A program made the translations under genes and the position numbers. This document shows positions 14,289 to 59,465 of a stretch of 64,000 nucleotides of DNA, piece by piece. This stretch comes from Pomacea canaliculata (lineage: Eukaryota > Mollusca > Gastropoda > Architaenioglossa > Ampullariidae). Where the stretch lies: contig NC_037596.1 of NCBI RefSeq assembly GCF_003073045.1, positions 28,432,392-28,496,391 of the forward strand, given 5' to 3'. Within the stretch, counting starts at the first letter, position 1; each line of letters begins with the position of its first letter. The notes beneath the pieces are model-generated. The model did not search any database. It was not told where the DNA came from and saw only the letters and a list, made by a program, of their open reading frames with translations.

Positions 14289-17200
14289 ATGATGTTATAT
14301 GTGATTGGTGCCTACGTGTTGTCTGTCCTTTTGTTTCCAGGAGCAGGTAAGTATATTTTTAATATACTCCATTACGTCCTATTAGTAAAACAAATCTTTT
14401 ATAATATTTAAATATTAGAAGTAAAAGCAAACATCTTTAGTTTCATGATGTAGAAGTGTATAACGCAGAAAAATCGAAGAGCAGCTGATTGTTTTAATTA
14501 TTGCATTAAAACAGTAAAATATCATCAAGTAAAAAAAAAGTAATTGTTTTGAAGTATTAAATGAAGGTGATGGATATATGCATGATGGTTTATGACATTG
14601 TTAACATTGCTTGTACAGCCGGACAACTGAGAGCCCGCTTAGTCAACGGGACTTACTATGGGGGGCGCCTGGAGATTCTGTACAATGGAGCCTGGAGCAC
14701 CGTCTGTGATGATTCCTTTGATAACGTTGACGCACAGGTGGCCTGCAGGATGCTGGGATTTTACAGGTTTTAATGCATAGTAACGCTTTTTTTCTGTTAT
14801 TGTTGATTATTATTTGACATATATTGACCATCGCATTCTACTTAACTAAAAAACAAATAACTGAAAAAAATAGTCATGAAAAAAAAACCTACCGTGCTCG
14901 CGTACGTGCGAACATGTAAGTGTTTGAGACTGCACGTGTCTTGAAATCGTTTATTTAATAATTTGTATGAGATTATATTATTAGTACACCTTAATGTGTC
15001 CCAATATTCGAAGTATCATCAACTCTTTCAGCCCTGGTGCTGTAGCTGTGTTGTCCAACATGTACGGCGAGGGTGAAGCAGTATTCTGCTTGATGATGTT
15101 AACTGTCGGGGAACAGAAACCAGCTTGGAGCAGTGCTCACATCCAGGGTACTACCGTCACAATTGTGAACACCAAGAGGACATTGGTGTCATATGCAATA
15201 TCCGTAAGCGATAGTATCTTGTGTCATGTATACTAGAATGTACTCAAATCACATAGGGCAGGTACTTTTGTTTTCCACAACCAGCCATGTAGTAAGCCAG
15301 TCAATAACGTCTTAATCGAAAACATTTATTTGTAAACTACTTATTTCACTTTATTAAAATGCCTCGTAATCGATTTCTTTGTCTTTCCCATACGAACATA
15401 CCCCCAAATATATAAATATATATAAATTTGAAATACATAATTATAATCTTAGAGAGTCAAACAAAGCGTTTGATTATTTAAAATATCTCTACAGGATTTT
15501 TCCCCTCACAATATATACATGTATTTTTCTTTATTATGACAGGTTACTTAGTGATTTTCCTGATGCAATAGGAAAAAACGAGTAAAGAATTAACCTCTCC
15601 AAAGTTATTAATGCTTATCAGATCTCTATGTCAGATGTTTTAAACTTGTGAGTAATTATTCTAACAGCCGGACAGATGACAGCTCGTTTAGTCAACGGAA
15701 CTCAGTGGGCGGGGCGCCTGGAGATCCTGTACAACGGGACGTGGAGCACAGTGTGTGATGATTTCTTTGGAGACGTTGACGCACAGGTGGCCTGCAATAT
15801 GCTCGGCTTTTACAGGTGTTGAGTGATGCGTACTCTGGTTATTAACTTATAACTGCTGGTGTTAAAATATAAAATGTATGCACTCAATGTTGCTTCAGGC
15901 ATTTTCTAAAAAAGTGACTTAATTAGTTCCCAATTTCTCTATGTGTTATTTATTTTAATAATTGCCAGTTTTGTTCTGGAAAAAAACTTGTGTATAAAGT
16001 TTGAGTTTGCCTCGTATCTCAATCAGTACCGGTGCCATGGTCGTGAGCTCTGCCGCATACGGGGCGGGGCAAGGAACTATTTTGCTTGACGACGTGAACT
16101 GTAGGGGGGCTGAGACCAGCCTGGCGCAATGTTCTCATAGCGGATACTACACCCACAACTGTCAGCATAGCGAGGATGTCGGTGTCATCTGTATTGCATG
16201 TAAGAACGCAGATTTTTTGTGTGAAAAAAATTCTCTAGAATTAACTTTGGTTTTTTTCGATAATTCGTAACATTGCTAAAATTAACTGGTTTTTTTTTTC
16301 TATACATAGGAAAGTATGCTATATATTCAGCATCATTAATTTTTTTAAAAGAGTAGTCATATTTAAAAAAACTTTCTTATAAGCAAGATAATTTTGCTGC
16401 TAAATTGTGGGTAATTAGCTGTGTCAAAAACAACCAAAGTATCGGTTAAAACAATGATTGCCGAAGTTGTACAGCTTAGTAAACGAAGGATGACAAAAAA
16501 AAAAAAAAAGACTCCATTAAATAGACACATTTAATAATAGCATCAGGTGGACAGCTAGCTGCTCGTTTAGTAAACGGAAGTCAGTGGGCGGGGCGCCTGG
16601 AGATCCTGTACAACGGGACGTGGAGCACCGTGTGTGACGACAGATTTGACAGCAACGACGCTCAGGTGGTCTGCAGGATGCTTGGCCTTAACAGGTGTTT
16701 GATCAGTTTCTAGCACGTAAGCTTTTATTATATTTTCATGGTTTTCCATAGCTTTGTTAGAATGGTTTTGTAAAAACTATTCTTTAATTTCTACAATAAT
16801 ATCTAAATTCTAAAGTGATGTATTGTTAGCAACATTTTTTAGATAGTAACTAAACATCAGTAGGTGTGTTTGTTCTTGATTTTAATAATCAACATGGAAC
16901 TCCAGTGCTGGAAAGAAGAAAATTGTATCTTAATTAATGAGCAATTATGCTTATTTCTATCAGTGCTAATGCCGTAGCCATAGGCTATGCAGCATACGGG
17001 GAGGGTCAGGGCAGTATTCTACTTGACGAAGTCAACTGCAATGGAACGGAGACCAGACTGGAACAATGTGCTCATAACGGATACTACAATCATGACTGTC
17101 GTCATAGCGAGGATGTCAGCGTCGTTTGTAGTGCTGGTAAGGGACCTTTCGATTAAATATAGAAGTTTGTGCGCTCGCAATAAATGTTGGACACATTAGA

Positions 17201-19184
17201 ACCGATCTAAATAGAAATAAAGCTAAAGACAGAAAAAGACGAACAAGTTAATGCATTTAAACGAGAAAAAAACCCAATGATGATAATATGATAAAATAAT
17301 TGTTTTCATCGGTAAACAGTGAAAAAGACACTCAGAGTAAACATCAGTTTCTTTAGAAATGATCACTTTTTATTTGTGCGAGGATAATAAAAGAAAGATT
17401 TAATTCGATTTACAATTTTTTGACAGCACCAAGCGGACACTTAACAGCACGATTAGTAAACGGATCATTATGGGCGGGGCGGCTGGAGGTTCTGTACAAC
17501 GGGACGTGGAACACAGTGTGTGATGATGATTTTGGAGATGTTGACGCACAGGTGGCGTGCAAGATGCTCGGATTTTATGGGTATTGAGCTTTGCTTAGTA
17601 TGGCTATTAACTTCTCCATTGTATATACTTGTGATTTTGAAAATAAGAATTCTCAAAATTTGAGAGGTATAGCTAAATTTGCTTTCATCAAAAAATAAGT
17701 TTTTCTTTGAAAAATGAAGGATAAAGAGTCCGTAGTATGTGTGTGCGAGATTGGAAGAAATAGAATGCGAGTTCCATTTTGAAACTGAATATCAAATTGC
17801 TAGTGCCATCCTGTAGAATCTTGTGTGCAGTTTATGATGTTCTTTCGTATCTATTTTCAGTCCTGGTGCCATGGCTGTCAGCCCTGCCACATACGGGGCG
17901 GGTCAGGGCAGTATTTTGCTTGACGACGTGAACTGTACGGGGAGAGAGTCCAACTTGGCGCAATGTTCTCATAGAGGATACTACACTCACAACTGTAACC
18001 ATAACGAGGATGTCGGTATCGTCTGTAAAAGAAGTAAGCACTCAGACGTTTTTTGTTTTGCAAAAACATATATTTTCTTTTTGTTAACAGGACTTTCTAC
18101 TAAAATGATTTGAGCGGTCTGCAATAATTTATTTCAGATCATTGGCAATAAATGAATAATGAAAGAGTGGAAAAAAGAAGAAAATACACATAATTAACAA
18201 AATAGCACGTTAAAAAGAGAAAGAAAAGCATCAAACAATGAAAAACAAGGAGTTAACGTGCAACAGAGAACAAACTAAAAGATGTGTATAAATTAATTTT
18301 TGTAACTCTCACGCTGCATCACATGACAAGGTTGAAATTTCAACTTATTTTTTACTACTAAATAAAAGTTCATGAATGCAGCCGTAAAAATTTTCTGAAA
18401 AAAAACAGTTATCACAGTCGTGAGAAAAATAACATTGTAGTTAAATAGCATTTAATTAAAGAGCTATCATTATGAAGGAAATATGGAAAACTGCATTGAT
18501 TACAGCAATCCCACTGCTAGCAGCTCGATTAGTTAACGGAACCCAGAGGTCAGGGCGTCTGGAGATCCTATACAACGGGGTGTGGAGCACCGTGTGTGAT
18601 GATGGCTTTGACAGCAATGACGCTCTGGTGGCCTGCAGGATGCTGGGCTTTAACAGGTGTTTAGCAGTTCCTAGTGTCAAACTCTTTTTAGTTAGCTACG
18701 GTTAGCTCTACATAGATTGCAACAAAATTTTAAGAAGAAGGAAATGAAATTAATTAGGTGAAAACAAGTCATTATTTTTCAAATAGCAAACTATTCGCAT
18801 GTGTGTATGCGTGCGATTGTATGTACAGGTAATATGGTAGTAAAGTTCTTTTTCTTAGCACATGTAGGTAAACAAGTCTGTGTAGGTATTTTACCTCTGT
18901 GTGTGTCTGTGGTTTGTTTGTTCGAGTCCAAGTGATGTGACTTTCGTGGAATATTGTTGTTATAGCAAATAGACGTTTTTTACTGATAATGTGTCTTATG
19001 TATGATTTTCAGTGTTGGGGCCACTGCTGTGGGGTATGCCCGATACGGGATGGGTCAGGGAAATATTTTGCTTGACGACGTCAACTGTATTGGAACAGAG
19101 ACCAGCCTGGCCCAATGTTCTCATGCAGGATACTACAATCACAACTGTAACCATTTCGAGGATGTCGGAATCATCTGCAATTAG
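14289..19184 (+). CDS. Gene A: secreted poly-SRCR protein, five domains
   Basis: Exons: 14289-14346 (signal peptide), then SRCR pairs 14619-14766/15032-15203, 15668-15815/16027-16199, 16547-16694/16964-17136, 17427-17580/17861-18033 and 18506-18656/19013-19184. Each domain shows the group-A pattern: [17 protein letters not shown] and VACRMLGF in the first exon; [16 protein letters not shown] and EDVGVIC in the second, six cysteines in all. Most first exons are 148-154 nt and second exons 173 nt, with phase 1 boundaries. The stop (AAT TAG) directly follows the last cysteine, so there is no membrane anchor. Exon 15032-15203 is 172 nt, one base short, at GAGGGTGAAGCAGT where paralogues read GGTCAAGGCAGT. 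As written, the frame meets a stop early in exon 15668. Skipping the first cassette would restore frame. A pathogen- or debris-binding role is inferred from the family. Confidence 0.82.
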
Positions 19185-22772: not shown

Positions 22773-31716
<8,944 letters not shown>

Positions 31717-34611: not shown

Positions 34612-34820
34612 GTTGAAATACAAAGGTTAATCTAAGAGATGAAGGGTTAATGTTAAACAGGCTGATATCAGATGTGTCAAGTATTAAAAATCATTGGAAT
34701 ATGTTTCTTCACAACTTTGTTCTATGAAAACACATTTTATCTTACGTTTCAAAAGACACATCGTTCAAATAATTTTTGTATTTTTTTAATTACATGAATG
34801 TTGCATTATTTTGTATTTAC

Positions 34821-34917
34821 CCTTTGAAGCAGGAGACAGCTCAGCACTATCAGGAGTGTTCCAGTCGTAGCGTATGGCACGTGAATAACAGGAAGTGGTG
34901 TCCTCTCTCTTAATATA
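34821..34917 (-). promoter_or_regulatory. Promoter and 5' UTR exon of EF-hand gene 3
   Basis: On the minus strand TATATTA covers 34917-34911 and a leader exon ends at 34821 before GTAAAT. A second UTR piece, 34631-34612, precedes the start codon. The same layout occurs at gene 4 (62819-62907). Confidence 0.55.
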
Positions 34918-39400: not shown

Positions 39401-42400
39401 CCTATTAAGTTTTTAAAAAAAAGCAAAAAGAAGATAAACACATTCCACGCGAGCCTGACCTCGTTTGTGTTTTTGTCTTCTTTGATACTACCTACCCGCC
39501 CCTTGCACAAGTCGGCTATAAATCTTCATAGTACTGACTGATATTAACTGATAGAATGTTGCAATAACAAATATTCTAGAAACACAATTGTATTAGATGG
39601 GCATTGCCAGTACATGCTTCCAGAAAGAACACAACAGCCTTTAGGGCACTTGAACCAGAAGAAGGTACTGGGTTAGAGTTTGCAATGGCTGCCAATACTA
39701 GCACAGTGTGCTTGGCGTTGCAAATGATTAATGTTTATGATTTTCATCAGGGTAACTAAGATCATGTCTACTTGTATGATTTTTACTCGTGCACATCAGA
39801 ACTTTTATACCAGGAAGTATATTACTGGTTTTTTTTTATACAAGGTTCCCTTTGTTATTTCTTTTCACCTTCTGTTTTGCTCCCTTGAAGGCAAGTTATT
39901 TTTATAAATTATTTTTGTCGGTCAATGCCATTGTAGTGAGAGCATGAAAACAAGTAGAGCTGCACTATTGTATATACGGTATCCAAAATAGTTTTTCGTT
40001 ATATGGCAGTCACAATTTGTAGAATGTAAAAAAGGAAGTAAAAAAAACCCATCCTTTTGAATACAATTCGAGAAACATCGTACCAATAAATCCCCTTTCG
40101 AAAAGTTCCAGTACTAAGTCACAGTACTTTACTTTCATCTTGTATTATTTTGTGTGTGTGCGCATCTTAATTATTTATTATCAGTTTCTGCTACTTCATG
40201 TGACATTTTTTGGTTTATCATACAGTACTTACAAAGCATAAAATACTACTTACATAAAACAATAGTACCGTTATTTAATAAGTCATATGGCTATATGGAA
40301 GCCACTTCTTCAGAAAGGATACGCGTGAGCCATGAGTAAATGCCAATATTGCTCCAATATATATATTATATCAGCCCAGTTACACTCCTTTAAATTCTAC
40401 CTCCCACTTTATGAGTATATATGTGTACACTTTATTGTCTTAAAGATATTTTGAAACTTCTTTCTTCCCCTTTCTAATAATAGCCAATCGCCTATTAACA
40501 GGTTTATTATGAGAGACTAACAGGTAATTACACTTCATTTGATATTGTTTATTGCACTATACCAAGCCCATATAGGTTATGAAATCCGTTGTAGGTTAAG
40601 GTAAAATACTTAACATAGAATTTTTTAAGAGTCAGAAATGTACCATCAACATTATTGAGGTCTCTTTTTTTAAACTTATGCATCCAACCATTTTAATATA
40701 AACTAATTTTCTGCCTCTAATTGAAACTCATTTTGTCTGGAATCTTATGTAATTTGATTTGTTTTTTCCTTCATCATATTGCAAAGAAATGACTTTTAAC
40801 AGCTGGACAACTAACAGCCCGCTTAGTGAACGGCACTCAGTGGGCGGGGCGCCTGGAGATTTTGTACAACGGGACGTGGAGCACAGTGTGTGATGATGAC
40901 TTCGGAAAAGAAGAAGCGAAGGTGGCTTGCAGAATGATGGGTTTTAGCAGGTATTTTGAAAAAAACAAATTAAAGTCTTGAAATCAAGAAATTTTTTCTG
41001 TTTTTACCTTTATTAATATTAGCTGTTTAGTCGACGCCATAACACTGAATTCTACATATGCACTGCTTAAGTCGTTTTAATGGCATAGAATCCAATGTTA
41101 TATTTAATATATATTTAATAATGCAATAAATTTCATTTTTTCGTTTTTTTGAATATCAAATCTTATATAAAAACATCTATACTCTGTTCATTTTGACTGC
41201 TGGTTTTATCACTGTAAATAAGATACTCTTTCCAGGAATTGCCGTTGATGAAAAGAAAGAGTATACCTCTTTTAAAACACTTTTGAATGTAGATCCCACA
41301 CTTCCGAAATTAATGTTTAGATTAATGTAATACTATTTATTACTTGTATCTCAACTGTTTTAATACATGAAACAGAGCAGAGGTCCTACAAGTAGGTTCT
41401 GTAGTGTATGGACCTGGCCAGGGAACTATCTTACTGGACGATGTAATCTGCCAGGGTACAGAGACCAGTCTTGATCAATGTTCTCACCTACCATTCTACC
41501 AACACAACTGTCAACATGTCGAGGATATTGGTGTCATCTGCAGTAACCGTAAATTGACATTTTATAATGGAATATTAAAGGACGTTCTATTATATTTTTT
41601 TAATAGTTATTTCAGCAACTTGTATCCTACCTTAACTTAACATTTGATTTCTCCATCACAGTCTGCTTGACACTCTTTTTAATAGCACTCAAACCGCCCT
41701 GCTTAAGGTGACAAACGACATTTTGTCTGCTCTGGAGAGATGTGACAACTCATTTCTCACCATGTTAGACCTGTCTGCTGCCTTTGATACCATAGACCAC
41801 ACTACTTCAGTTATAGACTCAGTACTCTCTATGGCATCTCAGACTACCCACTAGACTGGTTTCAGTCATATCTCTCAGACAGGACTCAGTCAGTTACAGT
41901 TGATGTTTGCGTTTCTCCACCAGTCTCTATACTCCCACAAGACCCACAAAGGTTCTGTACTTAGTCCCACACTCTTTATCATGTACATTAAGCCACTTAC
42001 TACCCTCAATCTCACTCTATATCTGATCAGTCCTTTGCTAAAGACATTCAGCTGGTCCTCTTCTGAGGTACACGCTACTCTCTTGAGAATCCAAGAGTTG
42101 TACTTCTGATATTAGACTATCGAGGACACACAAGAAGTTAAGTGACGAAATAAAAGCTTTAATTTTTTTTTTCAAAGAGAAGAGACCAGAGTATACCATT
42201 CACTGCCTGTCTCTGTTCCGGTCGGCCAGACCGATGTTACTTTTGTAACTTCAACATGTAACTTAGGTTACATAATGTCTGCTAACATGTTCTTGATAAC
42301 ATGTTTCCTATATTTGCCGTGATGCATACTATGAGCTCTGGAAAATCAGCTCCATTCGTCATTTTTTGTCCATCTCAGCCACCAAAATTCTTATCTGACC

Positions 42401-45400
42401 ATTTGTTCTAAGCTACACTACAGCAACTCTCCTCCTACTGGTTGTACACAGTACCTCATTCACAAGCTTTCTACCCTCCCTCCCACAAAGACAGTCACAT
42501 ACGGACAACGGACGTCCTCCCTATGTGCTGCTAAGCAGTGGAACTCTCTTCTACATCACATTCTCCACACGGACTCCAGGGCTACATTCACACGCTCTCT
42601 GAAAACATATCTGTTCACTAAGTACTATCCTTGAATTACTAGCAGTATTGTCTGTCGTATAAACCATTAGGTACGGCTCCAACTATTTACACTATTTTTT
42701 ATACCTTTATCCATTGCTTTACGCATTGTGCCTGTACGTGTCTCACTGTCCACTATCTGTTTACTTATTATTAGTCTTGCAACGTGAGTGCGATCTATCT
42801 TGGTCGTGATGCTGCGAATAACAGATACCGATTGTTGTTGTTGTTGTTGTTGTTGTTGTTTTGTTGTTGTTATTATTTTTATTAAAATGGTTTCTGGTAC
42901 AAAAGTTTTGACAGCACATTGATTAATATATATATACCCCAGCAACCACTGGGTTGCATTTTAGGACATTTTGATGCTAGCCATTTTTTTACCAGAAGTA
43001 ACTGTCAATATCTCAGAATCTTCCCAACTGCGTTTGGCGGGAACAAGCCAAACTAGTCTGCTCATGGGTCGTCCGGAAATTTTTTTCCGTGAGTGGACTA
43101 TGCTGTGCCTCATTACTAATGAGACTGCCAAAGTCATCTGTAGAACCCTTGGCTTTCCTTCGTATGTACTTTGGTGTCATTAAAAGTATTATAATAATTC
43201 ATCAAATATACTTAACCTCGTCGCTACTTTAGCCCCTGATAAATGAATAACATTAAAAATAATATTTTTTTTAGTATCTATATACTGTAAACTATGTGGA
43301 CGAAGTAAAGTGTGCAGTCCACTTCATGTTTTCATAAGGACTGTATCTGCTGTCATTTGCAAACGTATTGCTTATTTCCAAAATTAATATACGGAAGATT
43401 TAGCATTTGATGTTATTACGACATCCAAAAAATACAGTTTTTGTGTATGTGTGTTTATTGCATGATTTAAACTCGTTCTTATGCAGGACCAATGCAGTTG
43501 TGGTTGCATCCTCATTTGGACCTTTGCAAGGACGCTTTTTGTCAGACAGGGTGGCATGCGTGGGTAATGAGACCAGTCTTTTTAGCTGCATCAGTAGCGT
43601 GACAAGCTACCTCGATAGCTGCACCATACAACGTGGAGTCATCTGCAGTGACTGTGAGACCATTTTACTGTCTTTTACTTCTAATAAAATACACATACTT
43701 TTTGACACTTATTTCATTAAACGATAATATTATTATAGCATAATATCCACCCTATTATGTGACTTAACTCTTTCACTTTTTTTCCAGTAAGTACACATTT
43801 ATTAACAATTGGTGAGATGCATAAGTATGTTTCAAAAATTCAATGTTTTTTTAAGAAAAAATATGAATGTGCGTTGACTGTCGCACTATCTGCAGTATTT
43901 TAACCCATATGATCTACACTATTCGTTCAGACTAAGTATACTACTTAACGATGCTATAAATGACATGCGTATTGTTAATTAAAAAAAGGACAATAACCAT
44001 GATATGCATCTTACCAGATTATGATGTATATAGATAACGATGTATATATCGGCGTTCTAAAGTACAAAATAAGTTTGTGAAATTTTCTCGCAAACGCCTT
44101 CAAGTGATTGACTAGCTTCGATTTTCCTAATTCTCTTCTGAATCTTACTGCAGTTTAGCTTTGTTATATCTTTCTTTCTGTATTCTAGCAATCCAGACCC
44201 TATATATTGTTGCTGGCGCAAATTCTTCGATTACTAGTTATCCGTTTATGGAGGGGACCAAATGTGAGTCTAAAATGTGAAAGTGTACAACGAAACCAGT
44301 TTATCACCCAGTACACATGGCTTGAAACTGCAAGTGGTCGTCCTTCTAACGAATACCTGATTTTTGACAATGTAACTAAAACCCATCAGGGAGGTCGAGT
44401 GAGCTGTGGAACCAGCTTAACTCTAGTGGAATCATTCAATCAGCTGCCAGTGAAACACTACTGATAAATGTTTATTGTAAGTATATCTAAATTAATTACT
44501 TCTTGAACAAAAAAACGAATTGGGGTTTCTTGCTCAGACTACAAACTCAACGTTTAAACTTGTAGTGCATATTGTGATGTTTTAAAATTTCTTTTAAAAT
44601 ATATAAGGGACTACATAAATTTTATGACATATTTTTCTTAACTAAAATATTTAACTTGTCCTGTCAATTTTTTTCAGATATCCCTGTTATAAACATTACA
44701 TCAAACCAGAATGAATGTGAATCAGTACCTTCCTTTCCCAACCATTGTGCTGTGACTGAGGGCCACAATGTCACATTTAGATGTGAAGTCAACAGTAACC
44801 CGCCCCCTGCTGTAATCAGATGGTCTGGAAGCATTTACAGCAATACAAGAGAATTTCAACTAACATCAGTAAACCGACAGATAGGACAGTCTCGGTATCT
44901 CTGTATTGTTACAACACAGTCTGTTGCTGATGACAAGCGCCTGCCTTTGACTTCGTCTCGCTTGCTCACAGTTATAATCAAATGTAATTTTGGACTTTAT
45001 TTTTTATCAAAAAAACTTAGAGCTTTTGCAATTGTCTACCTCACTGTCTTATGTATTAAGCAATTCAATGTTTAGATACGTTCCTGTAACGTGTTTGCTT
45101 CATTTAGCTTTATTTATTGTCAACCTTATGTTATACTGGTATTGAGGGATATACTTTTAAAATCACGTTATCCATTTTTTTTACCTTAGACCCGTCAACT
45201 GTGCTGAGGTTTCAAATGAATGCTGTGGAAAACGAGACAATTATTGTTAATGAAAACTCCAGTATTGAGATGTTGTGTCAGGCGGACGGTAGACCTACAC
45301 CACGGATGTCGCTTGTCATCATCAAAGACAACAACCGTGTGCTTAGCTCTCGGCCTGCAGGTGTAATACAGGTGATGGAGGAGACAGGAGAATTAAGATA

Positions 45401-48400
45401 TTTCATAAGTCATATTCAATGCGAAGATTCCGGTGACTACAAGTGTGAAGTGGATAACGGTGTGGGAATAGACAGCAAGACTGTCAAACTTTTAGTTCTG
45501 TGTAAGTGTCATTTGTGGGTTATGTAAGTGTTTGTCTAACACTCCTTACCTCTCTCTGAGCTACACAAACCCTTAGCAGATCACTGTAGGACAGAAATAT
45601 TAAATAGGTTCTTAACTTTCAATTAAGTGCAAAACACAAATACAAAACTTTTGCAAGTCAAAATTTAAAGTAATCAGTCACTGCTTATAACAGCTTACAG
45701 CAAGAAGCAACGATATATATATATACATTTCCGCAATCGAGCTTTAATTTAATTTACGAAAAAATATATACACAGCCTTAGATTAAATCTCATTCATTCA
45801 GTTTGTGGATTGTACTGCTGGAGGCTTAATAAGACCTTTTGCAAGTGTTCAAAAGATGATACTATATCCATTAATTTGATAGGCTTTTTAATTAAGGTTG
45901 TTGGTAAGTTCCGTCGATGTAAGTCTTAACACATTAAGAAATCTTTTACTATACATAATATTGTAAATTGACAGCTACAATGTGAACAATTTTGTTTATA
46001 GACAAAATAACCAAAGCTGTTTTCTTTAATCTCACGTTTTCTTTTCATCGATTAATCAGTTCATCTTTCCAACTCATGGATTGAAAGTATATATTACAGA
46101 CCGGCCAGTGCTGCATCAGATGTCAATGGTTTTGCTTATTCAGTTTGATTGCCTGATCATGTACTACTTTCAAAAAAAAAAAGAAAAGAAGTAGCTAGCT
46201 TCAGATTCCTATCTGGGAAGATTGATTTAAACACACAAAATTTGAATGGTGCTGTAATTTTAATTAGGAATATTTGTACTGGTTAGAGATAAAATGTGAA
46301 GTAGTATTTACTTCTTTCAATATATGTGTTTATTGAATCTTTGATAGTTTTTAGTGAGTGATGATAATTGGGGTTTTTAGTAATACTTTTAACTGTGCAG
46401 GCGCTCCAAGAATAATTCAGACAGGAGATCACATTATTTCGCTGGATATCGGGGATTCTGAACGCGTTCTGAGTGTTCAACTGAAGTCGTACCCACCACC
46501 AGAAGTAGAAAGTGTGGCTTCTTACCAAACTAAAGTAAACGATGGAAGAGCATACCTACCCGCTTACGACCAAATAAACGCAGTGTGTGTTGAAAACAGT
46601 CTTTCACCAGAACTCGCCACCTGTAACATTACTGTTGACAATGTGACAAAGGCTGATGAAGGATTTTATACTATAACCTTCAGAAACAATCTTGGACAGG
46701 AACATTTTCCTTTCATTATTGTACAGAGTGGTAAGTAGAGCTTATAAGCAGATTTGCAATGTTCATTTATTTTATAAAAGACAAACATAAAACATAAACT
46801 TAAGCAAACTAGATAACACAGAGCGTAGAGTGGTCGAATGTTCTCGCCCACAAACATTTACTTATTTATCATCATCATCATTCCTTGTTACCCCTCGAGG
46901 AGCATAGGGCCGCAACAACTTACAGTGATACCTCGGTTCTCGAACGCCTTGACTTTCGACCAAATCGGTATTCGACCAGGAAATTCGAGAAAATTTTGTC
47001 TTGGAATCCGAACAAATATTTGGAACTCGAACATCCGAACGTCCGAGATGAGCCGAGTTGAGCCGAATGGCGTTCATTCGGCCCAGCGCGCCTTGCTTGC
47101 GTCATCAGTGTGAGTGCAGAGGAGAAAAAAACAGCAAACAATTGACAAATTCTTCCGTAAAGAAATCAGACAAGCAACTGCAGAGCAAGATTCTGATTCT
47201 CCTCAGCAAAAGATAGAGAAAACAGAAACACCCGAAGAGCAGTTACCCTCTGTTTTTATTGAAGAGGACTCCCCTTCAAAACAATAACTATCCCCCTTCC
47301 CTCCTCCCTCCACATTCATTCCCTCCTGCCATAAAGTTTGGTACAGGTACAGTAAATGAAACACAATTTACTGTACTGTACTGTACAGTACATTTTATTT
47401 TTTTGTTTTTGTTTTAATAAATACACTTTTATTTGTTATTTCTTGTTTTTCTACATATTATATACAAATTAGGCCAGTAAATAGGCATTTTCTGGGGCTT
47501 GGAACGAATTAATCCAGTTTCCATTATTTCCTTTGGGTTTCATTGCTTCGGTTCTCGAACAATTTGGTTCTCGACCGTCCTCCCGGAACGAATTATGTTC
47601 GAGAACCGAGGTATCACTGTACTTATTTATACTTGCGATTAATAGTATTCCCATAATGATAATCATTCTTGAGGAAAGATCATTTAATAATAAACTAAAT
47701 TGTTGATGCTTTCATAGCTTTCGAACTGCGTTTGGCGGGAACAAGCCGAACTAGTCCCCACATGGGTCGTCCAGAAATGCTGATTGGTCGTGACTGGACT
47801 ATGCTGTGTGACGTCACTGACGAGACTGCCAGAGTCATTTGTAGACTTCTCGACTATGCTTCGTAAGCTTTCTTTTTTCATTATTTTCCAGTTTTCTTTT
47901 AATTCCCAACTGTTATTACGTAAAGCAATAGTGAAAGTGTGGATCAATCACCTCAATTTACATTTTAGAAAATATTTCAATCCAACTGAAAAAGTATATT
48001 TTGTTATGTAGAAACGAAGCAACGGTGGTTGCATCGTCATTTGGACCTGTGCAAGGACGCTTCCTAAATTCTAGAGTAAGATGTCTTGGCAATGAGACTA
48101 ATCTCATTGTTTGCATTAAGAGTGTGTCGGGTTATATGGATAGTTGCAGTTCCGAACAAGACAGAGGAATCATATGCAACGACGGTAAGAATAACTTCTT
48201 CACATTTAATTTTCTGAGGCGCATTTATCTATTACGTTCATTATAACCACGGGACTTTAAATTTTGATACTTTGATTATGATCTCATTGCATTACTATGA
48301 GTTACAATATATGTGGACCATAAAGTAGCATAAAATTGATTGTCTACAATAAAGACAGCATTATCTACCGAAAGAAAAAATTAGTAACAAGATCGAAGAA

Positions 48401-50977
48401 AAACATAGGACCAGATAATTATGTGAATGTTTCCACATTCGTTCAATAACTAGTGAGCTAAATTGTTTAGCAAAATTGTAGAGGTAGATTAATCACATAT
48501 TCACACTGCTACAAACGGCATTGTACGACATTACCTGTTTCCAAATTTTACAGCACGCCAGTATCTTTATATCGTGGCTGAAACAAACTCAGCAACCATT
48601 AGTTATCCATTTACGGAGGGTACTAATGTCAGCCTGAAGTGCCAAAGTGCTTATCGTAATCAACTCATCAGTCAGTACACCTGGCTGGAGACTGCAGGAG
48701 GTCGTCCTTCCAGGGAGTATCTGATCTTTGACAACGTGACTGGAGAACATAACGGAGGGCGAGTGAAATGTGGGGCTGACTACTACTCGAGTGAACTCAA
48801 CCAGACATTATACAGTGAAACTTTAGTAATGCAAGTTTACTGTAAGTACATCCGTCTGCATGCTGAAAAATGCTTTACTTGAGAAATTAAACTAAATCGC
48901 GTGAAGAGATAGTCACTAAGTTGTAACCAGCAGTTTTCGTCCTCTGTAAGAATTCTTTTTACCTTTGTTCTTTCTCTAGCATCGCCCAATTCCCATAAAC
49001 AGTATAATGCTAGCATAAAACAATCTTTGTTTAGACGTGCTAGGAGATGGTAAGAACAAGTTTACTTACACTTGAAATGGTTTTATATACAAAAAAGAGG
49101 AATTTCACAAGAAATGTAGATTTTTTCATAGGTTCGCCAAGGAGACGTGACACAAAAGAGCAGGTTCCTTTGGTCCAAATCACAGATTCGAAAGGTCTTC
49201 TCACTCTTGAATTGACAGCCTACCCGACACCTCATGTAGCAAGCACAACTTACAATGACAGTAGAGATGGAGCGTCCGTCGAAGATACAGTGAAGATTGT
49301 GTGTGTCGCCAGCAAGATCATACCCGCCTTCGTCACGTGTAACATTACTGTTGTAAACTTGTCACATTCTGCTGAAGGCTTCTATAGTGTCATCTTCAGT
49401 AACAGTCTTGGAAATTTCACTTTTGTATTTAGAACTATTCGCAATAGTAAGTACATTTTAAAGTAAGACGTAAAGCACATTAATCGACATTTAATTGTAG
49501 CATTTTATGGATTAATGGAAATAAAACATGTTAATATTTCTGTATATATTTCATCGTTACAATGCTTGCCCAACTTTCACATTTACTTCTCTCTCTGTTC
49601 TATGTTTTCTTTACTTTCTTTATCTTTTACTTCTTTTGTTTATATTTTCTTTGCTATATTTTTAAAAATTATGAAAAATTAATTCTGTTGATTAGAAATA
49701 TTGTTCTTTTTAATCTAGTCAGATACAGATCAATAATTCATAGCTTTTTTTCCCTTTTATATGGATGGTTTGCAAAATCAAATTACAAATGTTACTATGT
49801 ACCAGGTGTAGGTGGGGAGTCCTCTCCACAAGTGGCAGTCATCGTTGGTGGGTGTGTTCTGCTGTCATCATCATTGCACTCGCCATCACATCATCAATAG
49901 TTCTAATTCGGCGCAAGGTCAAATTAAAAAGTAAATAATTTCTTTTTTCATATCATTTAGTTATTCTATTTGTTTACTTAGGTAATATATATACACTAAA
50001 ATGTTGTATTGAAAGCGACATCGAGTTGGCGAATGAGAGATAACTAGATATGTATTAAGCTATTTATTTACACAAACACGCAAAAGAATATATTTGAATA
50101 TGTAAAATAGTATTCTTGAACTTCAGCTGTCAGCATTATCGTAAAAGCTATTACGATTCGTGTAAGAAAGACTTCAAACTTCGTGCTTATCTGTAACTTG
50201 TAAATATTTTGTAGGCAGTTCCATCCAATTTGTGTAATTTAAGTAATCGTTACTTACATCGGCACACCATTTTTACATTACTTATATCCATAAATCCACT
50301 AATTATACATAATAAATTAATTATTAAAAGAAAACTAAATAAATGAGTAGTTTGTCATTACAAAAAACCGGCCAATGTTGTAGAGAATGAAAACATTTAT
50401 GAGAGACCGGTCATAAGGGAACAGTCTGAAGATCAAACTTATTCCAGACTGCAAGTGAATAGGATGATGACTGCTGAGACCCTTCCTATGAGTGGGATGG
50501 AGAATACAGGGACTGGTAAGAAAATATTAAGACAGAATTAACGTATTAATGCGATTGTTGTTTCCTACTTATCTATTTAGTTTAGCTGCCGTAGCTTTTA
50601 ATAAGATGCCAAGTGTGTGCCGCAAAAAAAACTTCTTAAAGCAATGTGCAGCAAAATTGTAAAAGACAACAACCAAGGGAGTAAACTGGTATCTGACACT
50701 ATATCGTTCTTCTAACGATTCAAGGTACACTTCCTTGGTTTGTAATCTTTAATCTTTTGTTTGTAATATTTTGCAGTATTTTTGTTTAAAATCGGCCTCA
50801 AATATTTTACAAATACTATCCTTAAAAGTCACGATTAAATTAGTTTGCTATAAAGTTAAGCTTGTGTTTTTTGTTGCAGACCGAGTTTACGCCAACACAA
50901 CAGAATTCAGTGTCAGTGCATCTGCCATTTATGATAATGTAGAGTCTTGGGAAGCCACAAGCATACGAAAATATTGA
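36408..50977 (+). CDS. Gene C: SRCR-Ig transmembrane receptor with tyrosine tail
   Basis: Exons: signal 36408-36462; SRCR1 36715-36862/37206-37378; SRCR2 40803-40950/41376-41548; divergent SRCR3 42996-43161/43487-43653; Ig1 44189-44476; Ig2 44678-44983; Ig3 45190-45501; Ig4 46401-46730; divergent SRCR4 47718-47862/48012-48184; Ig5 48554-48841; Ig6 49132-49446; transmembrane 49806-49930; tail 50351-50515 and 50880-50977. About 1,190 residues if unbroken. Ig3 shows DSGDYKC, typical of Ig folds. The tail holds IYERPV, TYSRLQV, VYANT and IYDNV. YxN is a known Grb2 SH2-type motif and YxxL/V resembles an ITIM. Ig1 carries two single-base shifts (near ACCAAATGTGAG and near 44450) that cancel in length. 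The transmembrane exon is one base short near 49860, after which [16 protein letters not shown] reads in the next frame. Confidence 0.78.
37764..37835 (-). mobile_element. Probable LINE/SINE 3' tail fragment
   Basis: An AAC/AATAAC microsatellite runs into ACTTTATTAATCCCAATGGG, a motif like the conserved 3' ends of L2-type LINEs and their SINE partners in other animals. It lies in the long intron of gene C after SRCR1. Family assignment is tentative. Confidence 0.4.
37836..40800. other. Long intron of gene C between SRCR1 and SRCR2
   Basis: About 3 kb without a supported exon. Open frames at 38633-39031 (minus, 132 codons) and 39311-39541 (plus) lack domain similarity that I recognise and lack splice context. 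Confidence 0.45.
41657..42636 (+). mobile_element. CR1/L2-type LINE fragment (reverse transcriptase and C-terminus)
   Basis: Near 41760-41810 the translation reads [13 protein letters not shown], then [12 protein letters not shown], the catalytic-region signature of CR1/L2-group non-LTR reverse transcriptases. From about 42494 to the stop at 42634 another stretch reads [16 protein letters not shown] and [12 protein letters not shown], typical of the C-terminus of such ORF2 proteins. Between them the frame is lost several times and much of the domain is missing. It is an inactive, 5'-truncated insertion inside the intron between SRCR2 and SRCR3 of gene C. Confidence 0.8.
42832..42873. repeat. 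GTT microsatellite
   Basis: A run of TTG/GTT units with one interruption, some 200 bp after the LINE fragment. It may derive from the tail of that insertion. Confidence 0.8.
42996..48841 (+). repeat. Intragenic module duplication in gene C
   Basis: SRCR3 (42996-43653) and SRCR4 (47718-48184) share long stretches: LRLAGTSxTS, [19 protein letters not shown]. Ig1 and Ig5 are both 288 nt and share [20 protein letters not shown] and EYLIFDNVT. Ig4 and Ig6 share TCNITV and the ADEGFYT/SAEGFYS region. The block SRCR-Ig1-Ig2-Ig3-Ig4 was therefore copied as SRCR-Ig-Ig, with loss of two Ig exons in the second module or gain in the first. Confidence 0.82.
46923..47619 (+). mobile_element. Non-autonomous Tigger/pogo-like DNA transposon
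   Basis: Perfect 23-bp terminal inverted repeats start CAGTGATACCTCGGTTCTCG at 46923-46945 and mirror at 47597-47619, flanked by TA on both sides as expected for Tc1/mariner-superfamily target duplications. The 697-bp interior keeps only the tail of a transposase-like frame, 47132-47287, beginning [11 protein letters not shown] and ending in an acidic stretch before TAA. It is thus an internally deleted copy. It sits in the gene C intron between Ig4 and SRCR4, at the junction of the two duplicated modules. Confidence 0.88.
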
Positions 50978-52262
50978 CTTTGTCAAAAAATGAACGAAGA
51001 CTTTTCAAGCGCCTGTAATATAAGCCTGCGTTTAAGCCTATCGGTATTTAAGATCTCATTTTGCAATTTATGTTCATGTCACACACACACACAAATAAAA
51101 AAAACAAAAAAAAAAAACAAAAAAAAAACATAGCTAGTACGACAAAGGGAAAGAACCAAAAGGTTCTGAGTTTTTTCCAATATTTGGCGCACCTAACAGG
51201 ATGGGGATTTTTTTTTTTTTTTTAGGAAATTACACATTCTGTCGTAACAACCGGAAAAGTTCTATTAATATCCTGGTATTCCCACAGTCAGTGCAGTGAG
51301 CTTGGTGCTTGAGTAGCTCTCTCTTTTGCGTGTGTGTAGATGGGCGTTTTAACATATGATCTCAACTTTCCAAGCTGTTATTTCCTTTTTATTCAGGATG
51401 TGACCTCTTTCTTTGAATCCTCATGTTTTGATAACGGAGGAGTGCCATCTGCTCACAATTTAACTAAATGTTACGAGAAAAGAATCCCATAAACCTAGAC
51501 CCAACCTAAAAACAGATTATTTAACATTTTAATTTAAAACTGTTTCTAGAGTTTCTTCAGAATCACGCAAAACCCATTGTTTTACAAAAAATGTACATAA
51601 ATATATTTTTCACGAGTATACATTGGTTCAGCTTTTCTGTTGCTGAGAACAGTATCATGAAGGTCTTTCTCTGCGTTGTAAAGTTTATTTGATGTCTGGT
51701 TATTGTAGCATGTCTATCGCCAAAGCCTGTCAAGTATTTGCAATAAAGGTGTATGTTAATGTTCAGTAGTTCAGTATACACTAGTTATAAGGACTTAACG
51801 TTTAGGCTTATTTAATGATAACTCATTAAAATGAAAAACCAAACACCTCCAGGTTTCATTTTTTTTCTGTTTGAAGTTCTCACTAGAAACACAAGTTCAT
51901 GTCTTCTTGATTTGGCTTAAACACTCATAAAATGCAGTATGAAAGATGCTTATCTTTTCTTGTTTTTGAAATGTTTGGCTTGGAGAACACTGTCTTATGA
52001 CTGCAGGAAGTTTCAAGCAGTTTTTCCATTTGTGAGATACAAGAGGTTACCCGACAGATACAAACAGTTAAAAGCTTGCTACGCTAGCATCTGAAGTTCA
52101 TGCGCTCGACTGCTCTCTGTCGTCAACTCTAAACATTATTTCAATTCCTTGTGCACGTGACAGACCACTCGCTGCCACTCCCCAGTCTTTCCTTCCTTGT
52201 TGATATCTGAGGCTGTTGCTGTAATATTTCATCTGACAAGACGCACTTGATCATCTCACATC
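50978..52262. other. 3' flank of gene C and upstream region of gene D
   Basis: A CA run leads to AATAAA at 51094-51099, followed by poly-A-rich sequence. No other exon seen. About 100 bp before gene D there is CACGTGACAG near 52154, an E-box similar to that of genes A and B but without the longer shared block. Confidence 0.45.
51094..51099 (+). terminator. Putative polyadenylation signal of gene C
   Basis: AATAAA about 117 bases after the stop. The neighbouring A-rich tract makes a chance match possible. Confidence 0.4.
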
Positions 52263-55200
52263 ATGAAGTCTAGTGTACACATTGCCTGTCTTATGCTTGC
52301 CCTTCTCCTTCCAGGCATTGGTAAGTATGCAGTGTATTTTACTGTACTTGCTAACTAATCATGATAATTATTTCTTTACCTCAGATTATTATCTTTTGCC
52401 GAGCCAAAATTTTAATTGCTTACTACCAGGTCCCAGAAACACTTATACCAGTTGAGCCCTTTAGATTAGCTTTAAGCTGTTTGCTTAAATATTGAATTGT
52501 CATTAAAATCTTTAATATGAGAGGGCACGTGTGTGTGTGTGTGTGTGTGTGTGTTGCTCCTGTAGAAACTCTCCTACTGGACAACACATACGTGCCCTCA
52601 AAAAGATGACTAATTTAAAATTTCTCATAATTAATTTACTTTAGACGTAGCAATAAGGCTAATACTATTTGTTCCTAGCCGGTAACACCTGGCTAAGCAA
52701 CATTTTAAATATTGAGATAGCCTGGTTGAACAGACAATTAACTTCGCAATCTTAGGTACTACGAGACAAATTGATATTTTATACAGCTGCAAGATGGATA
52801 AAAAGCGAGAACATCAACTGTTGATCATGTTGAGAACTAAAGCAAGAAAAACCGTAGATTGTGTTTGTAGACTTGAAGTACAGATGTTACAAGCCGTGCA
52901 GAATGTTTTACTGGGATCCACTTTAAGATTCAAGTATAGCCGTTCTTAACAACAGAAAAGATTGTATTTAAATTGCACTCTGCAACGGTCTTGTTTTTGG
53001 CAACTGTTTGACAAATATCTATAACTTGAAGCTAAATAATAAAGATCGCTGAGATGTTACACTGCGTTACTTAATATGACTATGTGGTTATTGACAATTC
53101 CATAAATAAACTTCATTTTGCTTGCAGCTTTAAGTAACGGGCAAATAACTGAATAAATTAATGTGATTTACACATATGCTTTTCATTTTAAAAAGGGTTA
53201 AAACCTATTGGTTGCAATTTCTAACACTTTTTGACAGACGGACAGAGAGCACGATTGGTTAAGGGCACATCACGGTACAATGGACGCCTAGAACTATTTT
53301 ACAATGGAACATGGAACACAGTGTGCAATGACTTATTTGATGCAAAAGAAGCTAAGGTAGCTTGCAGGATGCTTGGATTTAACAGGTGAATCATGTGACT
53401 GTGTTTTATTCCCTGGTTTGTGTACATACACGGACTTCTCTATTTATTACACGTACCGTGAATGTCATTTCGATTGTTCCATCTCTAAACAAAACATAGC
53501 CAGAAGCATGTGGTATGGTAGCAACCGGATTTCTTTATATAACCTTTTAAATATTATATTCAGAAAGACACAAAAATAGGATGTCAATTATTTGTTTACA
53601 ACATACATACACTGGTGTCTTTTACACAAGTTTTGATTTATACACTCTTCGACAGGTTGTTTGTTTTTGCAACACATTTAACAATTTGAGGGCCCTTGTT
53701 CCTTTTACTACTGTTCTTCCTCAAAATACTTTTAAAAGCTTCTTTGACATAAGATTTCTACTGAAACAGGCATTTATTTTAACTTAAGACTTTCCAGTCA
53801 TCAGCCATAATGAAACATCCTTTATCACTACATCTTTCTTCTGAAGACAACGATAGAGCTTTCTCTTTTTTATGAATGAAGATTTATGTCATTTTGTAAT
53901 ATCTAAAATTGCAAACTTTTATTTATATTATTTTCTTATACTTAGACTGTTATTTTTACTTTCTGTACATGGAAGCTCTCGTGCCCTGGCCGTAAGGACA
54001 TCAATGTACGGAGAGGATTCGGCTCCCATTCTGTTAGATAACGTGCGATGTAGGGGATCAGAAGCTACGCTGATGCAATGTCAACACAATGGATTATACA
54101 ACAACGACTGTGGACATCAGGAGGACCTTGGAGTCATTTGCAGCAACCGTAAGACCAATCTTTCATCAGCCTGCTTTAAGGATTGCATTTATTGAAAAGT
54201 ATTTATAATACAACAACAAAAAGGAGTCAGTAAAAGTTGTCGAGCAGTTTGATGCAGATTTTGCACAGGTAAACAAAAGCCGTTTAGCTGCACTGTGATG
54301 TAGGCAAACTTTGCTAAAAATAGAAGTATAATTATTGTTGACAGAACCAGAAGAGCTGCGTTTGACGGGCACTCGTCCAGACATACCTGGTCTGGGCCGC
54401 GTAGAAATAAATCTAGCTGGTGAGTGGTACACAATGTGTATCCCAGAGGTCAACGTTTCCGAAGTCGTTTGTAGACAACTCGGTCTACCGTTGTAAGTAT
54501 TTATTTCTTTTACAGTAAACACAAGAACACGATTTAGTTAGCTGTAAAAGTGTAAATAACTACGGCCTTTGATTAGAAACAATGAACATGCTTTTTAGGT
54601 TTTCTTCAGTTTATGCTTAACATTACAGATTTATTAAAAAAACAATTATTACGACTGAACAAACCACAGCGAGAAAAAGAAGGCGAGAAAGATAAAGACA
54701 TAAGGGTAACACTGCATTCTTCGCCGAGTGCAATAAAACTTGCTAAACTAATATCTTTGAAGCCTGACGGTACGCTTTAAAAAATATAACACAGCGTACT
54801 TTCCAAATAAGTCTTTCTCAATGATTAGTAAGGTCACAGCGGAAGTGTCCTCAAAAGCAAGACTCCATATTAATGTTATCTTTATCATCTTTCTTTTCCT
54901 TTATTTCACTTCAGACGGATGTGAATTCTAAATATTCCACATCTAAAAGCTATGAAAATGACACATCAACATATTTTATGCGTTCTGTTTAGTAAATCAG
55001 CAGTACCTTTGAGGAAATTTTCACTAGGACCACTCAACAAACCAAAGCTATTGACCAGCCTGAAGTGCAAAGGTCACGAAGGCAGCGTCATTGAGTGCGA
55101 TCAGGCGTCTTATAACAATCCATTGGAAATCTTTTTCTCCTGTAATTCAGAATCAGACTATTATGGAGTCTCCTGTGGCATCTGTAAGACATTTTTTTTA

Positions 55201-56979
55201 AATTTATACTTGTATTCAAAACATTTTCTTTGCTAGCTATTCTCTTGGGTAGAACAAGCGCAAGCTATAGACGGGGTATGCGTTGCTTACCATTTACAAT
55301 AATATTTATAGGCCGGAGTTTTATCACACGAAATATCAAATTATTAAATTTAACAAATGGTTAATATAACTTTTGTACTGATTATTAGAGTACTGAACAA
55401 GAATATGATTTTGTTTCTGTCTTCTACAGCCCCTTTGACTTTTATCCAACTAAACGAAGGCCCATATCCTGCAATGGAAGGAACAAATATTACTCTAGAG
55501 TGTATCACCGAACATGCTCTAACCAATTACACCTGGCAAAACAATGCAGGAGGTTTGGCTAATGAAAGCAGCCTCGTTATAAATAATCTGAACAGAACTC
55601 ATAATGGAAAACGAATACAGTGTTTGGCTGTTTCCCGTGATGGTTTGATTGTATCCAGTAATACCCTGAGTCTGCAGGTTTACTGTGAGTGCATTTTTAT
55701 TAACAGAATGAAGATGAAATTACAGAATTGTTTTATAATATACAAGGGTCTTTCAAATAAAAAAAACACCTAAGCCTCAACCAGAAAAATACTTGAACTT
55801 TTACAGGGGGAAAGAATCACAGTTTTTGCAATGTTGTTCCATTGTTTGGCTCACTTGTAGAGGGATAAATCCAGTTTTTATCTTGTGTTATTCATCTGCT
55901 GTGGAAATGCTCATGGTTAGTGAGTCATACGTTTCCTGGAAATTCCCTTTGCAGCTTCTGCTCTGTTGTCAGCACTATTAGGAATTATCTTGAAGACAGC
56001 TTACTCATCTCCAAGACCATAGTTAAAACAATGAGTGAACCAGAATCAATGTATATGAACAGCAATCTGCTGGACAGTAAGACCTCTGTCATCTGAAATC
56101 CTACTGTGAATGGCATTGACGTGACTGTAAATTTCTGATGATTTTGGGCGAAATGATAAAGGATGACCTGTGTGAACCCTACCCCGCTTGAATTCAGTAG
56201 ACCACTTCTTCACAATGACATTGGAAGGGGAGTCCTTAGCAAATATATGTATCACGTCCTTATGGAATTCTGTTAGTGTCATATTTTTTTCGCAGATACT
56301 TTATGACTGCTTCGGGCCCCTGTTTTGTCCGTTTTCATATTTGCTGCATCCCCTTTCACATTTGTGCACAAAATATAAAATAAAAATATGTATTAAATTT
56401 TCTAAAAGTTTTATAAGTAGTGGTAGCTATAGTACTTCTGTCTTGGTGAGGCTTTATAATTTTTTGAGCGACCTTTTATTTATATACATGTTTATGTTGA
56501 GGCTTGTCATCATCTTTGTCAGTAGAAACAGAAGCATGGATGTTGATGGATTGGAAAATTGGGTTGAATGGGTACGACTGACAATTGACTTGATAAGTAG
56601 CTACACATTATATAGGTATACTGTAATAATAAAAATTTATTACAAAAAACTGTTTAATGATCTTAATATTTCAGATAAGCCGGTTATCAGAATCTACTCG
56701 GCCTCCAGTAACCCATATTGGTCTTCTCACAACACTATGAGGTCACAAGAGGTCAAAATGTCACATTTTCCTGTGAAGCTCAAAGCAACCCTCCTCCTTC
56801 TTCCATCACGTGGTCAGGAAGAATGAACAGTACTACTCATGAATTACATGTCCTAGAGGCCGATCAGACAAAACACAATGGAGTCTACACCTGCACAGTG
56901 GTCACTGGAACAGTGGAAGGTGATAACCGTCTACCTCTGATGTCCTCTTACCAGCTGGAGCTAAGTGTCGGATTTCTAG
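52263..56979 (+). CDS. Gene D: SRCR-Ig protein, 3' end not found
   Basis: Exons: signal 52263-52320 (MKSSVHIACLMLALLLPGI); SRCR1 53238-53385/53976-54148; divergent SRCR2 54345-54492/54993-55183; Ig1 55430-55684; Ig2 56675-56979. Order and phases mirror the first part of gene C, and D-Ig2 matches C-Ig2 (NVTFSCEAQSNPPP, DNRLPL). SRCR2 keeps cysteines but lacks the VCDD acidic pair (MCIPEVNVSEVVC). Exon 53976 has a poor acceptor (TACATGGAAG). Ig2 is 305 nt where 306 is needed; the frame changes by one base near ACACTATGAGG. I find no transmembrane or tail exon downstream to 58,900, so the gene is either truncated, a decaying copy, or ends in exons I cannot recognise. Confidence 0.68.
52529..52554. 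repeat. GT dinucleotide microsatellite
   Basis: About 13 uninterrupted GT units in the first intron of gene D. Confidence 0.9.
55744..56290 (-). mobile_element. Mariner-like transposon relic
   Basis: On the minus strand 56046-56282 encodes a helix-turn-helix stretch with KWSTEFKRGR and DDRGLTVQQIA, matching the N-terminal DNA-binding region of mariner-family transposases (KWxxRFKxGR, DRRxTxxELA). Further along, near 55880, WIYPSTSEP recalls the catalytic-domain TWIHHYTPE motif. The middle is missing and frames are interrupted, so it is inactive. It lies antisense in the gene D intron between Ig1 and Ig2. Left edge is set at GGGTCTTTCAAATAAAAAA, a plausible terminal repeat whose partner I did not find. 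Confidence 0.7.
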
Positions 56980-58985: not shown

Positions 58986-58989
58986 TTCC

Positions 58990-59465
58990 GTTCGATACAC
59001 GCCTGTTACTTTTTTCGAGTATTTCCAGGAGCAGATAAGTATATTTTTATTATTCTTTATAAACTTATCCATTTAGTAAAAGTATCTGTCATTGTTATAA
59101 CAAGCAGAACAGTTTCAATAATAGTATCGTGCATAAATGTAAATTCCAATCATGGTGAACATGTCTTTCAAGAGCTAAGGTTTTTAATGCTTACAAAAAC
59201 AAATCAGTGAAATGTACCATGCTTCAGATATGAAGAGTACTGACAGCAATATTGTGTGCTTAGGTGATGGATTGTAGGTGTAGTCTGCTGTTACCTTCTT
59301 CCCATTATTATGATTGGACTGCTGAACAGGGAAAAGCATTCCTACTGAACTGGAAACGGTGGACAAGATGGCTCGATTCTTACAAGGGAACATGGAGCCA
59401 AATCTGTGATAATAACTTTGGAGACATCACAGGTGGTATACGCAACGACTGGCTGAGGCAATATT
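58990..59465 (+). pseudogene. Decayed SRCR gene start
   Basis: The segment 58995-59034 resembles the signal-peptide exon of gene A (TTTCCAGGAGCAG before the donor), but the donor reads ATAAGT instead of GTAAGT. From about 59345, translation gives a worn SRCR first exon: KGTWSQICDNNFGDI against [15 protein letters not shown], followed by ACAGGTGGTATACGCAACGA where paralogues read ACAGGTGGCCTGCAGGATGC. No second exon is visible because a GC-rich segment begins near 59530. It occupies the same place relative to EF-hand gene 4 that gene B has relative to EF-hand gene 3. Confidence 0.7.

Follow-up and report, generated by a model that had tools for sequence, protein, structure and literature searches.

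Do the SRCR genes crowded between positions 14,289 and 59,465 of a 64,000-nucleotide stretch of the apple snail Pomacea canaliculata form a compact innate recognition system, as a first-pass annotation had proposed, or part of something larger? The stretch, called the window throughout, is the plus strand of C7:28432392-28496391 (C7 being contig NC_037596.1), and the genome searched comprises 440,159,624 bp on 24 contigs. The window is animal DNA whose coding sequence is split over many exons, and SRCR domains are joined in some genes to immunoglobulin (Ig) domains. The first observation is confirmed, its interpretation is partly supported, and the finding is larger than first noted: with a probability that we put at roughly 0.6, the window captures part of a very large SRCR-Ig family on a single chromosome, which serves diversified innate recognition in soluble and membrane forms.

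An exon map of the window was built from 55 manually placed exons, with AG/GT borders chosen to match the register of the aligned paralogues, so that the splice sites of every internal exon are present partly by construction. Each SRCR domain in this map is an exon pair, consisting of an A half of 145-166 nucleotides (nt) and a B half of 167-191 nt, with an entry phase of 1, an inner intron of phase 2 and an exit phase of 1; signal exons end in phase 1, and each Ig domain occupies one exon of phase 1-1. Such phase-1 cassettes are a free-shuffling arrangement. Paired SRCR-half exons repeat through the window, and the pattern lies beyond chance, given that one repeat family alone counts 17 copies. 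An Rfam scan of the window gave no match at gathering score. The mapped features are as follows.

14289..19184, plus strand: gene 1, poly-SRCR; signal exon 14289-14346, then five two-exon SRCR domains, in A/B pairs from 14619
22773..31716, plus strand: gene 2, poly-SRCR; signal exon 22773-22827, nine SRCR domains
36408..50990 (end approximate), plus strand: gene 3, SRCR-Ig receptor; signal, three SRCR, four Ig, repeat, transmembrane, tail
36408-36462, plus strand: gene 3 signal exon
36715-36862/37206-37378, plus strand: gene 3 SRCR1, type 1
40803-40950/41376-41548, plus strand: gene 3 SRCR2, type 1
42996..43653, plus strand: gene 3 divergent type-2 SRCR, two exons, beside the Ig block
44189-44476, plus strand: gene 3 IgV (g3Ig1), two frame slips
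44678-44983, plus strand: gene 3 Ig2
45190-45501, plus strand: gene 3 Ig3
46401-46730, plus strand: gene 3 IgM
47718-47862/48012-48184, plus strand: gene 3 internal repeat, type-2 SRCR
48554-48841, plus strand: gene 3 internal repeat, IgV
49132-49446, plus strand: gene 3 internal repeat, IgM
49806..49930, plus strand: gene 3 transmembrane exon; open over 111 nt if the acceptor is at 49819
50351-50515 and 50880-~50990, plus strand: gene 3 cytoplasmic tail exons
52263..56979, plus strand: gene 4, SRCR-Ig; signal exon 52263-52320, two SRCR, two Ig
53238-53385/53976-54148, plus strand: gene 4 SRCR
54345-54492/54993-55183, plus strand: gene 4 type-2 SRCR
55430-55684, plus strand: gene 4 IgV
56675-56979, plus strand: gene 4 Ig2, 1-nt frame slip
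about 59028-59465, plus strand: relic, a decayed signal exon and an SRCR A half (A-half piece 18 bits)

The anatomy that the first-pass annotation described is recovered in this map: two signal-peptide poly-SRCR genes of five and nine domains, each with a stop after the last SRCR, two SRCR-Ig genes, of which one has a transmembrane exon followed by a tyrosine tail and the other no detectable transmembrane exon, and one relic near 59 kb, all plus-strand phase-1 cassettes with similar signal exons. The stops of gene 1 (19184) and gene 2 (31716) lie right behind the ICN of the last SRCR domain, and a scan for phase-1/1 exons found no transmembrane exon in the 3.5 kb downstream of gene 1 or the 4.6 kb downstream of gene 2. 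SRCR domains 1-8 of gene 2 alternate between two B-half types, one RHxC..NIR-like and the other xHNC-like, suggesting that the array likely grew by two-domain units. We infer that all exons of gene 3 belong to a single gene and transcript, which contains an internal duplication of type-2 SRCR, IgV and IgM exons and ends in a tail with the tyrosine motifs YERP, YSRL, YANT and YDNV and a terminal YENI in another frame; the end of its last exon, read as YENIDFVKK in one frame, matches YENVDFVNK of a gene near 28.65 Mb. No transmembrane exon was found by the same scan in the 2.3 kb downstream of gene 4, and its product is probably secreted. The A halves of the leading SRCR domains in genes 1-3 are within the ten closest pairs (synonymous divergence, dS, of 0.22-0.29), which makes the soluble arrays and the receptor one family.

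The identity of both domain types is supported by profile and structure comparisons. The A half and the B half tried in Pfam, one each, matched PF00530 (SRCR) at 3.5e-11 and 2e-12, respectively, and the best solved relatives of spliced SRCR1 in a PDB search were CD163, PIT54, CD5L, DMBT1 and MARCO. In group A of the SRCR superfamily each domain has six cysteines and is encoded by two exons. All 15 A halves counted have two invariant cysteines and all 15 B halves have four, four slipped halves and six type-2 halves being left out of this count, and the SRCR domains of the window accordingly belong to group A. The C-terminal exons have an immunoglobulin superfamily fold: of six Ig exons submitted to Pfam, one scored above the cut-off (I-set, 3.7e-11), four matched more weakly (2.8e-6 to 0.003) and one, 49134-49445, the IgM exon of the gene 3 repeat, had no match. 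The AlphaFold2 model of the latter (pLDDT, the predicted local distance difference test score, 83.8) matches Ig domains with a best E of 1.6e-3, and no match at E 0.001 or better was present among the 50 listed. The IgV exon, which by itself is no more than a candidate Ig domain, has the weakest Pfam match (0.003) and gave a poor model (pLDDT 52), and the Ig3 exon resembles many Ig domains in structure comparison, including those of titin and adhesion receptors.

Whole-genome searches with single exons place this family on one chromosome. All 84 genome matches of the IgM exon, all 72 of the Ig3 exon of a further locus at 30.16 Mb (L043) and all 150 scored matches of the IgV exon (the best 150 of 180 candidates) are on C7, and one SRCR B exon has 146 matches on C7 and four on C11 (the best 150 of 587 candidates, counted by eye). 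None of the matches listed for the three Ig exons is on C11, C1 or C13. Merging of Ig positions at gaps of 3, 5 or 8 kb gives 177, 167 or 159 loci, a count in which members are missing, as 150 of 180 IgV candidates were scored, and some loci are surely fragments; among the matches listed, Ig3 and IgM are both present at only 57-58 loci. With the 5-kb gap, 133 Ig-marked loci are at 26.4-30.92 Mb of this 30.92-Mb contig (116 on the plus strand), 24 are at 0-3 Mb (18 on the minus strand) and 10 are outside both ends. The loci at the two ends thus point mostly outward, and the two-ended distribution could reflect a real subtelomeric position or a mistake in Hi-C scaffolding. The compactness first ascribed to the system is therefore not borne out, the window being a small part of a set of some 160-177 loci marked by Ig exons, all on a single chromosome. 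This is a large tandem SRCR family, alike in kind to the sea-urchin expansion, a likeness that does not imply a common expansion. Elsewhere in the genome, separate clusters at C1 7.75-7.99 Mb and C13 13.77-13.84 Mb carry the SRCR domain in a single exon, and split SRCR exons without a listed match to the family's Ig exons are present at C11 12.6-13.5 Mb and C1 3.01-3.07 Mb.

The window and the next 200 kb, together an extended stretch of 264 kb, were scanned with profiles of the window exons, which located the following.

Extended stretch 93-102 kb, minus strand: further SRCR-Ig gene
Extended stretch 107-116 kb: further SRCR-Ig gene
Extended stretch 132-141 kb, minus strand: further SRCR-Ig gene
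Extended stretch 181-185 kb: SRCR fragments
Extended stretch 208-219 kb: further SRCR-Ig gene (the 28.65-Mb gene), with transmembrane and tail exons
Extended stretch 233-242 kb: further SRCR-Ig gene (the 28.67-Mb gene), with transmembrane and tail exons

The fullest layout is that of the 28.65-Mb gene, which runs from five type-1 SRCR domains and one type-2 SRCR through IgV, Ig2, Ig3 and IgM to the transmembrane and tail exons. A scan for phase-1/1 exons that encode a hydrophobic helix and a basic stop-transfer, with a donor pattern widened after a stricter version missed two exons already seen by eye, gave three transmembrane exons on 528 kb of strand, just 3' of the Ig blocks of gene 3, the 28.65-Mb gene and the 28.67-Mb gene. 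Two distant loci vary the order: L043 reads SRCR-SRCR2-IgV twice and then Ig2-Ig3, and L044, at 30.08 Mb, reads SRCR-SRCR2 followed by two IgV-Ig2 pairs; neither Ig3 nor IgM was found in it, and it resembles gene 4 in this. Segmental copies of 5-10 kb with 90-91% identity in the extended stretch are the product of recent tandem duplication.

Other repeats are present in the window. Positions 1-4652 and 5150-9777 form a 5.1-kb tandem duplication of about 91-97% identity, 11350-11653 and 12385-12688 are a 0.3-kb pair of 96% identity, and a unit of ~3 kb is repeated at 32445-35435 and 60533-63449 with 68-73% identity. The ~3-kb unit contains an EF-hand-like open reading frame on the minus strand (33703-33972; 61758-62117), in which Pfam found no EF-hand match; similar frames are present at eight more places in the next 70 kb, a region that contains SRCR-Ig genes as well.

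The two SRCR types differ in the motifs that they keep. In type-1 domains the VEVLxxxxW-like motif is present in 30 of 33, VC[DN]D in 30 of 33, LD[DNE] in 33 of 34 and ED in 31 of 34, and in type-2 domains the same motifs, in that order, are present in 2 of 12, 0 of 12, 0 of 9 and 0 of 9, the types having been assigned by profiles built from the domains counted, with low-scoring matches dropped and loci inside the extended stretch left out. DMBT1, CD163 and MARCO bind bacteria and cations through the VEVLxxxxW stretch and acidic clusters. An innate recognition role fits this architecture best. Genes of the family are assembled from phase-1-joined cassettes in the order of a signal exon, one to nine type-1 SRCR domains and an optional Ig part, the Ig-bearing genes having one or two divergent type-2 SRCR domains and two to four or more Ig domains, and end either in a transmembrane helix and tyrosine tail or with no detectable transmembrane part. 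Type-1 SRCR domains may be the ligand binders, with type-2 SRCR and Ig domains as a stalk. Soluble members, of the type of genes 1 and 2 or of gene 4, would attach to microbes or parasites by their polyanionic or glycan patterns and cause agglutination or opsonisation. Membrane members of the gene 3 type, displayed on blood cells or epithelia, would bind ligands like these, and their phosphorylated tail tyrosines (YxNx, YxxL/V) could recruit SH2 proteins and lead to uptake or encapsulation. The repertoire would have been diversified as whole genes, and also SRCR and IgV cassettes, were duplicated.

How the family relates to known systems depends on domain order and exon structure. Vertebrate SRCR arrays are of group B, with eight cysteines and one exon per domain. 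CD163 and DMBT1 share with the snail genes the SRCR arrays, the soluble and membrane forms, and the VEVLxxxxW-like and acidic motifs, but the snail SRCR domains are of group A, with six cysteines and two exons, and are followed by Ig domains in some genes. The VIgLs and FREPs of the snail Biomphalaria are multigene products in which Ig comes first and fibrinogen, or a C-type lectin domain, last, and the FREPs are secreted. They likewise join Ig to a recognition domain, but the order here is SRCR and then Ig, and some members are transmembrane; the profile search covered exons of the SRCR-Ig genes, with fibrinogen and lectin exons outside it. VIgLs are also mentioned in PMC9334734. The closest known relative in make-up is a P. 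canaliculata lectin with two Ig domains and an SRCR, possibly exclusive to Caenogastropoda (PMC9178244, citing Gorbushin 2019), which resembles gene 4 in the same species and also L044, with its two IgV-Ig2 pairs behind the SRCR domains; the sentence on it in PMC9178244 is silent on transmembrane forms with four Ig domains, on poly-SRCR siblings and on the size or chromosomal clustering of the family. Elysia sea slugs, also gastropods with new domain arrangements, join SRCR to other domains; Ig and I-set are listed in the legend of a scavenger-receptor figure, so that an Elysia protein with both SRCR and Ig may exist, and no genomic cluster is described in the text covered (PMC7663992).

A survey of SRCR genes in 29 species reports 357 in sea urchin and 296 in sponge, with gastropods below bivalves, Pomacea unnamed in the main text, and Ig_3 listed for zebrafish only in a table of the top five partner domains of seven species (PMC10855680). 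The sea urchin and sponge genes share with the snail family a large tandem expansion, varying domain number and duplication units of one or two domains, and the largest tandem cluster of the urchin in that source has 16 genes. A 2026 genome paper on Ampullariidae describes expansions of C1q, kelch-like and ficolin genes, and the words 'SRCR' and 'scavenger' are absent from its main text (PMC13336756). The literature searched, with subscription papers largely outside it, contains no description of a chromosome-scale SRCR-Ig cluster or of a tyrosine-tailed SRCR receptor with four Ig domains. A cluster with both soluble arrays and a tyrosine-tailed SRCR-Ig receptor had first been judged less familiar; the lectin of PMC9178244 shows that the joining of SRCR and Ig is not wholly new.

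Frame slips, which are absent from the first-pass annotation, complicate this picture. As assembled, each of genes 1-4 has at least one slipped exon: relative to paralogues, 1-nt slips are present in g1B1 (15032-15203), g2A2, g2A5, g2B5, g3Ig1 (two) and g4Ig2, and possible slips in the gene 3 transmembrane exon, which is open with the acceptor at 49819, and in its last tail exon. Six intronless HSP70 copies of this assembly served for comparison: three are whole, two are split once and one is in six pieces, the HSP70 slips (at least seven) being inferred from split matches only. The split copies at C1:13863214-13870090 and C1:14727105-14728920 suggest residual indel errors or pseudogenes. The assembly was made from long reads polished with short reads of a highly heterozygous animal, according to PMC6129957. 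Slips were rejected as simple proof of decay, given that three of six HSP70 copies are also split and that the ratio of non-synonymous to synonymous divergence (dN/dS) is mostly low; assembly error and decay cannot be told apart as their cause.

The dN/dS values argue for constraint, being mostly well below 1. In the window, with slipped exons and type-2 domains left out, the median is 0.21 for A halves (dS<1 in 67 of 105 pairs) and 0.41 for B halves (40 of 105), and none of those pairs exceeds 1. Between the 28.65-Mb and 28.67-Mb genes, the ratio is 0.22-0.27 for IgV, the main piece of Ig2 and Ig3, 0.30 for the type-2 B half and 0.40 for one B half, and is undefined for the transmembrane exon, which is identical; in the comparison that gave these values, many more distant pairs are saturated.

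Several observations weigh against the recognition reading. The two closest B-half pairs of the window have dN/dS of 0.85 and 0.95, and the two neighbouring genes reach 1.01 in an A half (44 codons), 0.98 in a B half, 1.85 in the tail exon (48 codons), 0.70 in a second Ig2 piece and 0.66 in IgM, with dN 0.061 and dS 0 in the type-2 A half, where the ratio is undefined. Positive, diversifying selection among the paralogues is unsupported, dN/dS being mostly below 1. For three of the five further SRCR-Ig genes no transmembrane exon was found by the 264-kb scan, and only three genome matches were obtained with the tail exon of the 28.65-Mb gene, so that a tail at most Ig loci is at best putative; a count of membrane receptors by tail exons was rejected on this ground, as tails diverge fast or differ. 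Given the frame slips, some members may be dead. SRCR proteins are also present in shell or scale matrix and in the oviduct (PMC7142155, PMC7736800, PMC8614816).

The last of these points leads to an alternative that we consider unlikely, namely that the family encodes chiefly secreted structural or matrix proteins of shell, periostracum, mucus or egg capsule. The scaly-foot snail Chrysomallon, likewise a gastropod, has 65-70 tandem DMBT1-like genes with a variable number of SRCR domains (2.3 on average), linked to armour or immunity and highly expressed in mantle and scale epithelium (PMC7142155, PMC7736800), an SRCR protein is present in the Littorina oviduct (PMC8614816), and many members of the family here look secreted. 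Ig is unmentioned in the text covered for the scaly-foot snail. Matrix proteins, however, would not be expected to have Ig blocks, tyrosine tails or a transmembrane helix, and the type-1 SRCR domains here keep ligand and cation motifs.

It is less probable still that much of the cluster is a graveyard of functionless, decaying tandem duplicates with few live genes. The slips in genes 1-4, the relic at 59 kb and the SRCR fragments at 181-185 kb would be expected of such a graveyard, but the low dN/dS would not, and usable splice sites accompany all 55 placed exons, albeit exons chosen at such sites; the split HSP70 copies, though they could themselves be pseudogenes, keep assembly error alive as a source of the slips. 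Finally, a family for self/non-self or gamete recognition, which could equally be large, tandem and chromosome-restricted and comprise both soluble and membrane forms as well as tyrosine tails, is highly improbable given that the paralogue comparisons bear no sign of diversifying selection and that scavenger receptors are among the closest solved SRCR relatives.

Innate recognition by a slice of a chromosome-scale SRCR-Ig family remains the reading that we favour, although ligand binding, agglutination and SH2 recruitment are suggested here by domain content. A stronger version can be put forward only tentatively: the ~160+ SRCR-Ig loci at both chromosome ends might form a dedicated, still-expanding repertoire with matched soluble and tyrosine-tailed forms drawn from common phase-1 cassettes, in which copy-number variation between individuals is the source of diversity, and thereby a lophotrochozoan counterpart to the SRCR genes of sea urchins that differs from them by its Ig stalk and signalling tail. 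The apple snail damages crops and serves as intermediate host to a rat lungworm. Standard gene models may miss the family, owing to its short SRCR-half exons and the frame slips of the assembly. For Aplysia, 11 SRCR genes are given in PMC9334734. If the favoured reading is true, a large SRCR recognition family would exist in a group surveyed as modest in SRCR number (PMC10855680, PMC9334734), and the apple snail would offer a testable case of invertebrate recognition widened by the shuffling of phase-1 cassettes.

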